Translations under genes and position numbers: made by a program
Notes under the pieces: generated by a model
Seen by the model: only the letters and a program-made list of their open reading frames with translations
Databases searched by the model: none
Told to the model about the DNA's origin: nothing
Shown: in pieces, positions 13,952 to 16,433 of the stretch
How the letters are laid out: every line of letters starts with the position of its first letter
Position numbering within the stretch: the stretch's first letter is position 1
Source of the DNA: Cyanobium sp. M30B3
GTDB taxonomy: Bacteria; Cyanobacteriota; Cyanobacteriia; PCC-6307; Cyanobiaceae
Direction of reading: 5' to 3'
DNA: 64,000 bases
Assembly (NCBI GenBank): GCA_018399015.1
Contig: CP073761.1
Coordinates: 248,001 to 312,000, forward strand

Positions 13952-14404
13952 CTAGGGGTACTCGACCGGCTGGGCCGGGATCGAGAGCGCCTCGGCTGCC
14001 TTGATCAGCGCCTGGTCGGCGGTGATCAGCGTGAGCCCATGGCGATGGGCGATGGCCAGATGCAGGGCGTCAGCACCCTTCAGGCCGCAGGCCGGCGCCT
14101 GCTCCAACCATCGTTGGGCGCACAGAAAGTCATCCCCCCGCGGCTCCAGCATCCCGAGCCGCTCCCGGCGGAAGGCCTCCAGAGTCGCCCGCAGGGGTTC
14201 GGCCTTGGCGGCGTTCAGGTCGCCACGGCGAAGTCGCACCGTGGTCGCCGAGGCGAATTCCAGAAGCACCCAGTGGCTGATCCAGAGTTCGTCCTCCGCC
14301 GCCGCCACCAACCAGGCCTCGGCAGCGGCGTAGCCGCTGTCGTTGTGAAACAGCGAGATCAACAGGCAGGTGTCGAGATAGAAGCTGCCGGCGCTGGGTG
14401 TCAA
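13952..14404 (-). CDS. vapC: Type II toxin, PIN-domain ribonuclease (VapC family)
   Basis: 150 aa PIN-domain protein. The acidic metal-binding residues are visible: D11 (YLDTCLLISLF), E49 (VLLEFASA), D112 (GADALHLAIAH) and D130 (ITADQAL). Members of the family are Mg2+-dependent RNases that cut tRNA or rRNA unless bound by their antitoxin. The only in-frame start next to the antitoxin is TTG 14402-14404, overlapping the antitoxin stop as TTGA, so toxin translation depends on antitoxin translation. Minus-strand operon with the antitoxin upstream. Confidence 0.88.
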   Translation of the reverse strand: MTPSAGSFYLDTCLLISLFHNDSGYAAAEAWLVAAAEDELWISHWVLLEFASATTVRLRRGDLNAAKAEPLRATLEAFRRERLGMLEPRGDDFLCAQRWLEQAPACGLKGADALHLAIAHRHGLTLITADQALIKAAEALSIPAQPVEYP

Positions 14405-14646
14405 GGCTCATGATCCCGCAGCTCCCGCAGCAGCTCCACGGCCGAACCCTGCAGCGGTGGCTGATCGCGATGCAGCTCCCGCAGTCGCCTCGCCCAGCCT
14501 GAGGCGGGCATGACAGCAGGCTTCTCCCGCACCACCCGGGCCACGGGCCTGCCGCGGCGGGTGATCACCACCTCTTCACCGGCCTCCACGGCAGCGAGGA
14601 GCGCCGAGAGCTGGGCCTTGGCCTCTGCCAGACCAACCTTGCGCAT
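14401..14646 (-). CDS. Type II antitoxin, Phd/YefM-like (VapB partner)
   Basis: 81 aa from ATG 14644-14646. The N-terminal MRKVGLAEAKAQLSALLAAV and VVITRRGRPVARVV are the Phd/YefM DNA-binding fold signature; the C-terminal half (about 45-81, ...LRELHRDQPPLQG...) is the usual toxin-binding tail. It neutralises the downstream PIN toxin and likely represses its own promoter. A perfect inverted repeat 16 bases upstream of the start (14662-14676) is the obvious candidate operator. Confidence 0.85.
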   Translation of the reverse strand: MRKVGLAEAKAQLSALLAAVEAGEEVVITRRGRPVARVVREKPAVMPASGWARRLRELHRDQPPLQGSAVELLRELRDHEP

Positions 14647-14661
14647 GACCAATCAACCAAA

Positions 14662-14676
14662 TAGTCATTTAGACTA
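14662..14676. promoter_or_regulatory. Palindromic operator candidate of the PIN toxin/antitoxin operon
   Basis: Perfect inverted repeat TAGTC-ATTTA-GACTA, 5-base arms with an AT-rich 5-base spacer, in an otherwise GC-rich genome. It lies 15 bases before the antitoxin ATG, where a -10 box would overlap it (TAAATG or TAGTCT on the minus strand). Phd/YefM antitoxins bind such short palindromes for autorepression. Binding is inferred, not shown. Confidence 0.5.
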
Positions 14677-14951
14677 AGTGGTCCGCCTGGGTCGCGCGGG
14701 GAATCGATGGGCGACGGAACTGGGCGACGGAACCCCAGCGCCGCCGCTGCTTCCCCGCAAACGCGGGTTGGACCAGGGCACGACGCGCAGCCGGCTGGCT
14801 CAGGGAATCCGGGGCTCATGTCGGTCAGGAGCCAGAAGCCAAACGGATCCACCGCCAGGAAAAACGACCTGCTGCCTGGGTCAATCGGGAAAGCGTCTAC
14901 TACTGCGGCTGCAAAGGCTCGGGGGGATGATTAGAATGTTGCATACAAATC
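14677..14951. other. Intergenic region between toxin/antitoxin operon and AT-rich gene
   Basis: No convincing gene. It holds a 12-base direct repeat GGGCGACGGAAC (14709-14720 and 14722-14733, one base apart) and, at the right end, a sharp fall in GC content. The inverted repeat TTGCAT(14939-14944)...ATGCAA(14952-14957) overlaps the ATG of the next gene. The change in base composition marks a junction between resident and probably acquired DNA. Confidence 0.4.
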
Positions 14952-15599
14952 ATGCAAAATATTAACCAACATTTAATCAAAATATCCAAAAAACTTGTCT
15001 TTATTTCAGTATCGATTGCACTGTATTTGAATGCAAATCCGGCCAAAGCTATTCTCAATATCAATATTTTTGACGATGGCCCTGACCTGAAGGTCGTTAC
15101 TTCGGGAACATTGTCTGAGCTTGGCAATCAAGTGTTTTCTCAGAATTGCGGGGCCAACGGAGTGTTGCTTTCGCCATCTATCATTTGCACTGGCGTTGAT
15201 ACTCCATCCCCGCTGTATTCGATAACCGGTCTGGCTGGGTTTGGTGGAACGGCATCTTTATCTTCTGCGGCTTCTGTGTTTGGCCCATTCTTTGTCCTTG
15301 CTACAAGTGGCCCATTTGGTCAAATTTATGCCATTGATCCGTCATATGTGACAGGCCAGCCATTCCTGAGCAGTGCAACCTTCAGCGGCACTAGCCTTGC
15401 CTCCCAGGGTTTCACCGTCCCCGGTCTTGTAGGCACCTGGAGCATTGATGGCACATCAGAATCCATCAATCTGATCGTTGGACCTCCTGCAGAGGTTCCT
15501 GGCCCCTTGCCCCTGTTCGGCGCAGCCGCTGCCTACGGCTGGAGCCGGCGGATTCGGCGTCGCATCACCGCTCCTGTGAGGACACCGCCCCAGGCCTGA
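14952..15599 (+). CDS. Secreted protein with PEP-CTERM-like C-terminal anchor
   Basis: 215 aa, starting MQNINQHLIKISKKL with a signal peptide (FISVSIALYLNANPAKA). The middle is a Gly/Ser/Thr-rich beta-type extracellular region. The C-terminus reads EVPGPLPLFGAAAAYGWSR followed by RRIRRR: a short motif, a hydrophobic alanine-rich segment and an arginine cluster, i.e. the layout of PEP-CTERM/VPGPLPL sorting signals recognised by exosortases. The gene is far more AT-rich than its neighbours, which suggests horizontal transfer, while its last 120 bases return to high GC. No exosortase gene is in the window. Function unknown; surface or extracellular polymer association is inferred from the sorting signal only. 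Confidence 0.75.
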   Translation: MQNINQHLIKISKKLVFISVSIALYLNANPAKAILNINIFDDGPDLKVVTSGTLSELGNQVFSQNCGANGVLLSPSIICTGVDTPSPLYSITGLAGFGGTASLSSAASVFGPFFVLATSGPFGQIYAIDPSYVTGQPFLSSATFSGTSLASQGFTVPGLVGTWSIDGTSESINLIVGPPAEVPGPLPLFGAAAAYGWSRRIRRRITAPVRTPPQA

Positions 15600-15621
15600 T
15601 CTGGATTCCCTTCTTCTCCAG

Positions 15622-15645
15622 CCCTGCCAATGGCAGGGGTTTTTT
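15622..15645 (+). terminator. Intrinsic terminator after the PEP-CTERM-like gene
   Basis: 7-bp GC stem CCCTGCC/GGCAGGG with a 3-base loop, then a run of six T (15640-15645). It lies 22 bases after the stop codon at 15599. One of the few textbook intrinsic terminators in the window. Confidence 0.85.
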
Positions 15646-15695
15646 GTTGCCATCAGGCGCGGGCAGACGGACAGGCCGTTGGGGGCTGCTCTCGC

Positions 15696-16433
15696 TCATC
15701 GCACCTGCACGAACAGGTGCATCTGCTGGCTGCCCGGCCCCATGGGCACCTCCCGCACGTTCAGGTAGGGCTGGCCCTTCACCAGTTCGCTGAGCTTGCG
15801 GAAGCCGTAGTTGCGGGCGTCGAAGGCGGGGTCGTTCTTCTGCAGCAGGCTGCCCACCATGCCCAGGGGCGCCCAGCCGTCGTCCTGGGTGACGGCCGTG
15901 ATCGCCTCGCACAGGAAGGGCTTCAGCGGCGGGGCTCCCTCGTCGTCGGCTGGCCGGCGCTGGCTGGAGCCGGAGCTGGGGCCTCCGCTGCTGCCGCGCC
16001 TGAGGATGTCGGTGTAGAGGAAGCGGTCGCAGGCGGCCACGAAGGCCTTCGGGGTCTTGCGCTCGCCGAAGCCGATCACCAGCAGCCCCTGCTCGCGGAT
16101 GCGGGTGGCCAGGCGGGTGAAGTCACTGTCGGACGACACCAGGCAGAAGCCGTCCACCCGGCCGCCGTGGAGCAGGTCCATGGCGTCGATGATCAGGGCC
16201 GAATCGGTGGCGTTCTTCCCCGTGGTGTAGCTGAACTGCTGCACCGGCACGATCGCGTGCACGTTGAGCACCTCCTTCCAGCTGCCCAGCTGGGGCGTGG
16301 TCCAGTCGCCGTAGGCCCGCTTCACGGTGGCGGTGCCCACCTGGGCCACCTCCGCCAGCAGGTCGCTGATCACCGCCGCCTGGGCGTTGTCGGAGTCGAT
16401 CAGCACCGCCAGGTTGGGGGCGTCGCGGTTCAT
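15696..16433 (-). CDS. NYN-domain putative RNase with C-terminal OST-HTH/LOTUS domain
   Basis: 245 aa from ATG 16431-16433. The N-terminal NYN (PIN-like) domain shows LAVLIDSDNAQAA (D13, D15), SALIIDAMDLLH and VSSDSDFTRLA, the acidic residues of the nuclease site. After a Ser/Gly/Arg-rich linker (about 145-165) comes an OST-HTH/LOTUS RNA-binding domain (PLKPFLCEAI...WAPLGMVGSLLQ...NYGFRKLSELV). Expected role: Mg2+-dependent RNA cleavage or RNA binding; targets unknown. Its start overlaps the glcF stop as ATGA, so it is translated with glcF and icd. Confidence 0.85.
   Translation of the reverse strand: MNRDAPNLAVLIDSDNAQAAVISDLLAEVAQVGTATVKRAYGDWTTPQLGSWKEVLNVHAIVPVQQFSYTTGKNATDSALIIDAMDLLHGGRVDGFCLVSSDSDFTRLATRIREQGLLVIGFGERKTPKAFVAACDRFLYTDILRRGSSGGPSSGSSQRRPADDEGAPPLKPFLCEAITAVTQDDGWAPLGMVGSLLQKNDPAFDARNYGFRKLSELVKGQPYLNVREVPMGPGSQQMHLFVQVR

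Follow-up and report, generated by a model that had tools for sequence, protein, structure and literature searches.

The gene at positions 14952-15599 of the window (the whole 64,000-nucleotide stretch of the Cyanobium sp. M30B3 genome that was analysed) very probably encodes a protein handled as cargo by a cyanobacterial exosortase system whose tag is a Pro-Gly-Pro variant of the PEP-CTERM one; we coined the name PGPLP tail for it. The open reading frame lies on the plus strand, starts with ATG and codes for 215 amino acids in three parts: a basic, hydrophobic N-terminus ending in ANPAKA, a 148-aa body, and a 34-residue tail that forms the C-terminal end of the protein (VPGPLPLFGAAAAYGWSRRIRRRITAPVRTPPQA). 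The features of the locus are as follows:

14930-15490, no strand: low-GC block, from 200-base GC windows
14952-15599 (stop included), plus strand: coding sequence of a 215-aa secreted-type protein with a PGPLP tail, from the open reading frame and the orthologue L121:4135-4779 in the congener G010
14952-15050, plus strand: putative signal peptide of 33 aa ending in ANPAKA, with the cleavage site placed by eye and an N-terminal hydropathy peak
15051-15494, plus strand: AT-rich, presumably exported body, predicted mainly beta from a model of residues 34-180, no Pfam family
15495-15596, plus strand: putative C-terminal sorting tail, with VPGPLP, a short hydrophobic stretch, an Arg cluster and 11 more residues
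15622-15638, plus strand: intrinsic-terminator-like hairpin followed by a T run (1 found against 1.6 expected in shuffles)

A similar hairpin is found 3' of the G010 orthologue, and no sigma-70-like site was found near the gene. The downstream neighbour is a minus-strand gene (15699-16430). Upstream lie two small minus-strand genes (13952-14652) that by inspection resemble a Phd/PIN toxin-antitoxin pair, of which G010 (L121) matches only pieces: the first 31 aa of Phd at 90% and 35 aa of PIN at 83%.

The protein shares several traits with PEP-CTERM proteins, namely an N-terminal signal peptide, judged by eye and from hydropathy only, and a C-terminal hydrophobic stretch followed by a basic cluster. 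The hydrophobic stretch is short and scores low (mean hydropathy of 1.06 over its best 14 residues), and VPGPLP stands in place of the near-invariant Pro-Glu-Pro. The 215-aa protein scores below every Pfam and NCBIfam cut-off, that of the curated PEP-CTERM model included; the nearest NCBIfam tail model is PID_CTERM (11.3 bits, below the cut-off of 26). The earlier note had described a PEP-CTERM-like tail, and this largely holds, but the tag is a Pro-Gly-Pro one and this protein passes none of the Pfam and NCBIfam tail models.

A degenerate DNA pattern for the tail matched at 7 places, against 3 for a reversed control; one match (L005) fell in an unrelated frame and was dropped from the tail set. 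A six-row profile built from six real tails, all from this genome, finds 12 tails in it (E from 1e-16 to 5.5e-5), six of them by construction and the other six not, while the next match has an E of 1.55. These 12 matches and the clear gap that follows them rule out a motif arisen by chance. All 12 tails, that is, 11 besides the one studied here, carry Pro-Gly-Pro, and Pro-Ala-Pro and Pro-Ser-Pro also occur in relatives. As in PEP-CTERM families, with several copies per genome on otherwise mostly unrelated proteins, the 12 bodies are mostly unrelated (mean column identity of 22% over 561 columns), some pairs being homologous. One of the 12 proteins matches Pfam Trypsin. The protein at L089:1960-3366 (minus strand; G000:C1 near 507 kb) reads like a trypsin-type serine protease, and the 117-aa frame at L080:141-491 (plus strand; G000:C1:918404) has no signal peptide and is probably truncated or decayed. 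No clear match to the NCBIfam tail models was found among the 12 tails, the G010 orthologue and one homologue from G043. The best E values for the tail proteins of the genome were 0.002 for cyano_PEP, a model that two of the 12 touch, and 0.12 for PEP_CTERM; like the 215-aa protein, the other 11 presumably lie under the curated cut-offs. Since these models do not clearly recognise the tails scanned, exosortase cargo is probably under-annotated in the family. As for a shared upstream motif, the best 8-mer occurred in 7 of 73 upstream stretches, whose start sites are uncertain, with shuffle maxima of up to 6.

The 3.18-Mb, one-contig genome contains a single exosortase (G000:C1:2172796-2173548, minus strand), with 90 bits for PF09721 (E 2e-25; cut-off 25.7). 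The Cys, Arg and His typical of the family lie in its motifs CTGID, NAVRIAL and FHDSYG, and the enzyme combines the family score with the Cys-x-Gly, N-x-x-R and H-x-x-x-G patterns of EpsH-type exosortases (CTG, NAVR and HDSYG). The earlier note had made its reading hinge on an exosortase and sibling tails elsewhere in the genome, and both were found. The CrtA type that it had named is only loosely right: the best NCBIfam match is indeed cyanoexosortase A (CrtA, TIGR03763), but its 92.4 bits fall short of the cut-off of 150. Polysaccharide-type genes (SIS, two ABC transporters, an epimerase and a FkbM methyltransferase) lie within about 10 kb, and one neighbour is nearest to HpsJ_like_A (58.1 bits, below the cut-off of 140).

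Tail and exosortase occur together across the family. Among 400 family genomes, scored like the 388 of a class-wide survey on the top 21-22 candidates of each, 56 have both, 5 the tail only, 13 the exosortase only and 326 neither (exosortase in 69, tail in 61; Fisher p 1e-49, a value that ignores relatedness). By genus (n=59), the exosortase is present in 12 and the tail in 9, all 9 within the 12 (p 2e-8, relatedness again ignored). The link was not significant within the genus (13 genomes), where tails occur in 4 of the 8 exosortase genomes and in 0 of the 5 others (p 0.10). Tails at E<=0.001 were found in 8 of the 388 class genomes, all in the family of Cyanobium sp. M30B3; weaker matches elsewhere in the class (E 0.01-0.1) look like chance. 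With the best 21 candidates scored, several family genomes hold at least 21 tails. In G059 two tails flank the exosortase at 1.6 and 1.8 kb, one on each side, and the distances are 2.3 and 3.0 kb in G043 and 6.4 and 7.5 kb in G003. The tail-only genomes (G464, G469, G648, G653 and G678) are 84-95% complete and in 140-390 contigs, and the exosortase-only genomes include the congeners G004, G011 and G012, with 99-100% completeness. When 16 exosortases of 14 family genomes were aligned, the Cys motif varied (CTG, CSG, CNG or CLG) and two groups stood out by eye, which mostly differ in FFH versus FWH at the His motif, L128 being an exception. The second group (L134, L135, L136, L137, L138, L139, L140 and L141) includes some genomes without PGPLP tails and may read another tail. 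Against the cargo reading stand the tail models, none of which is passed, the weak hydrophobic part, the 5 tail-only and 13 exosortase-only genomes, the non-significant link within the genus and this second group, which blurs the pairing of tail and exosortase.

What we regard as the best single argument for VPGPLP as a sorting tag comes from sequence relatives of the body. A five-row body profile searched in the 388 class genomes retrieved relatives in three other families (E 2.6e-11, 1.1e-9 and 3.7e-7); one of them ends in a PFE-CTERM tail (33.2 bits, cut-off 24) and two in cyano_PEP tails (34.4 and 23.1 bits, cut-off 21.6). Since body homologues carry curated sorting tails at this place, the VPGPLP tail sits in the position of a sorting tag, and the three kinds of sorting tail borne by one body family suggest that the tag evolves independently of its cargo. 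That the tail is a plain membrane anchor at the C-terminus, unrelated to the exosortase, is highly improbable. Hydrophobic residues with Arg behind them could hold the protein in the membrane with no processing, the motif lacks PEP, cleavage by the exosortase is argued by analogy, and 5 tail genomes have no detected exosortase; yet a mere anchor would sit poorly with a motif kept on mostly unrelated bodies, with the co-occurrence of tail and exosortase in the family and with the curated tails of the body homologues. The exosortase-type signal of the earlier note is therefore borne out by the one exosortase, the 11 further tails, the co-occurrence and the three homologues. The body itself, modelled over residues 34-180, is mainly beta (mean pLDDT 69.7, pTM 0.69). 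Foldseek gave no PDB match at E<=0.001 for this model, PDB sequences searched with a profile yielded a single match, at E 0.14, and the best VIA-align scores on the Foldseek list (Z 3.6 for a GH20 enzyme and 2.6 for a cellulose-binding domain) were too weak and were rejected.

By analogy with the PEP-CTERM/EpsH literature, the cargo reading implies the following path. The signal peptide would carry the protein across the inner membrane, where the hydrophobic stretch and the Arg cluster of the tail would retain it with VPGPLP at the outer face; the single exosortase would then cut at or near VPGPLP through its Cys, Arg and His, and the released body would go to the cell surface or the exopolysaccharide. 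All the steps after export are modelled on PEP-CTERM/EpsH work, on the CrtB study and on ZepA of Anabaena. In the Cyanobium protein the exosortase probably removes the tag on the way to the cell surface. Topology, cleavage, destination, a role in the matrix and the function of the cargo are likewise extrapolated from that literature.

The AT-rich, secreted-type protein announced by the earlier note was confirmed: its gene has a GC3 of 0.48 in a window with an overall GC of 71.5%. The minimum GC3 among 46 other window genes is 0.75, in a comparison biased by the simple GC-pattern caller that supplied them and that favours high GC3. In a scan with 500-base windows and a step of 50, the ten poorest in GC all begin within 14601-15051. 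In 200-base windows, GC goes from 0.66 at 14700-14899 to 0.375 at 14900-15099 and 0.435-0.535 up to 15499, with 0.64 at 15400-15599 and 0.64-0.665 past the block. Of the two edges proposed before, a drop at about 14930 and a return at about 15480, the left one is sharp (14900-14930), but the right side is a ramp that ends near 15480-15500, with no step. GC climbs again at the tail (VPGPLPLFGAAAAYGWSRRIRRRI), GC3 being 0.42 in the body (computed on the open frame, with 7 codons upstream of the ATG included) and 0.74 in the tail.

Such a profile raises the suspicion, voiced by the earlier note, of an acquired gene with a 3' end repaired from or recombined with local DNA. That the gene came recently from a foreign source and then exchanged its 3' end with the host we consider quite unlikely. 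The GC contrast is strong, and amino-acid-matched GC3 in the tails (12 genes, 403 tail codons) is 0.71 versus the 0.565 expected from body codon use, as a recombined 3' end would have it. Nonetheless, 11 of the genome's 12 tail genes have a low body GC3 (range 0.38-0.76; below 0.75 in those 11 and 0.76 in the twelfth), GC3 is higher in the tail than in the body for 11 genes, and the syntenic G010 orthologue has a similar composition. Because of this orthologue the AT-rich body with a GC-rich tail is not a recent one-off, and the claim of a recent transfer followed by repair at the 3' end is for the most part unsupported. Regarding a mobile origin, tblastn gave no match in phage or plasmid records, and a scan of genome contigs with two short N-terminal peptide patterns, a weak test, found one locus only, taken as that of G010 itself.

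The low body GC could instead reflect weak codon selection and the amino-acid use of fast-evolving secreted proteins, with neither transfer nor recombination, a reading to which we give somewhat less than an even chance. It agrees with the low body GC3 throughout the tail genes and with a set of 73 tail genes at loci of 11 genomes (four genes with short open frames kept), 56 of which have a tail GC3 above that of the body, compared to 24 of 46 window genes in which the last 32 codons are higher. PMC1569441 likewise counts PEP-CTERM sets among the most rapidly evolving of their genomes. By itself, however, weak codon selection does not predict the drop in identity in the non-coding leader near 14760, nor does it predict same-site genes whose bodies are unrelated by blastp at 1e-5. 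The best explanation is that AT-richness of the body is a property of the cargo class, not of one recent transfer, and that the body changes fast or gets replaced.

The history of the locus bears on this last alternative. Among 119 relatives, the only other homologue within the genus is that of G010, with a weak one in G043 (E 3.2e-5). The G010 orthologue is syntenic: the gene downstream of it is the same, and the upstream pair persists beside it as remnants. It is 54-59% identical, the value varying with the alignment, and its body is similarly AT-rich and its tail GC-rich. In six other congeners with both flanks on the fetched stretch, 1.6 to 11 kb apart, no homologue was found between them, and none was found in four congeners of which the stretch showed the downstream gene alone (tblastn, E 1e-4 in both cases). 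Synonymous divergence from G010 (pS) is 0.71 in the body (90/128) and 0.37 in the tail (11/30; Fisher p 0.0012), and 0.24 in the downstream gene. Identity to G010 is 0.85-0.98 at 14550-14759 and 0.52-0.56 further upstream, in the disrupted pair; near 14760, in the non-coding leader, it drops from 0.92 to 0.55, staying at 0.33-0.73 across the leader and most of the body and returning to 0.73-0.89 from about 15420 to 15690. The contrast in pS and the upstream break also speak for acquisition, whose proposed recency the G010 synteny opposes. The sequence profile fits a replacement of leader and body at a resident tail, and a body saturated at synonymous sites, next to a tail that is not, suggests that such a replacement would be an older one.

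A resident tail was rejected as a general rule. In a set of 19 pairs that matched in one or both flanks, 7 had tails closer to each other than to any control from a different locus, and the bodies in these 7 were all related (44-92% identical); for the remaining 12, at least one control tail was equally close. Synonymous divergence of body and tail differed in 2 of 7 orthologue pairs (this gene and G010, p 0.0012; L152 and L214, p 0.029, unadjusted), and one of the 7 was reversed, with the tail more diverged than the body. Since both tests fail in general, body replacement is a possibility for the 14952-15599 locus only. In some same-site pairs the bodies are unrelated by blastp at 1e-5, yet the tails of such pairs are not clearly closer than controls. 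One example is an interval beside a tRNA-Arg that contains PGPLP-type tail genes with very different bodies in four genomes, L079, L150, L209 and L196, the last an eroded remnant. The tRNA was located in the first two and is visible by alignment in the others. That PGPLP-tail genes occupy fixed chromosomal "sockets", in which the exported body is swapped by recombination while tail and flanks stay, is an unlikely picture; if true, one exosortase would display a rapidly renewed set of surface proteins.

On sequence grounds, the Pro-Gly-Pro tag is a candidate new variant of PEP-CTERM-like sorting, unrecognised in the 215-aa protein by Pfam and NCBIfam; no paper describing it was found in our searches of the open-licence literature. 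A divergent exosortase with a non-PEP tail makes a testable pairing. The closest parallel is the PEP-CTERM/EpsH system (TIGR02595, TIGR02602; PMC1569441): a signal peptide, a C-terminal motif with hydrophobic stretch and basic cluster, many fast-evolving cargo genes, a Cys-Arg-His exosortase and polysaccharide-type neighbours. It differs in having Pro-Glu-Pro where we find Pro-Gly-Pro-Leu-Pro, in a model that the 215-aa protein does not reach, and in that the PGPLP tail at E<=0.001 is confined to one family of the class. Non-PEP sorting tails are also known in PFE-CTERM (NF050011), found on one body homologue, and PID-CTERM (NF046080), the model nearest to our tail, although the motifs differ and 11.3 bits remain under the PID-CTERM cut-off of 26. 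Compared with cyano_PEP (TIGR04155) and cyanoexosortases A, B and C (TIGR03763, TIGR04156, NF033464), two body homologues have cyano_PEP tails, the exosortase is closest to CrtA and has an HpsJ-like neighbour below cut-off; unlike in that system, the enzyme scores 92.4 bits against 150 for CrtA and the best of the 12 tails has an E of 0.002. ZepA of Anabaena is a secreted PEP-CTERM protein in which both end signals are reported to be apparently cleaved (PMC10957091). Finally, Nostoc punctiforme (PMC12188702) has one cyanoexosortase, CrtB, with many PEP-CTERM proteins and a link to polysaccharide and biofilm, and the abundance of PEP-CTERM proteins differs in the exoproteome of its crtB mutant: one cyanoexosortase and many tailed proteins are common to both systems, but there the host is filamentous and pairs CrtB with PEP tails, whereas here the enzyme is CrtA-like.
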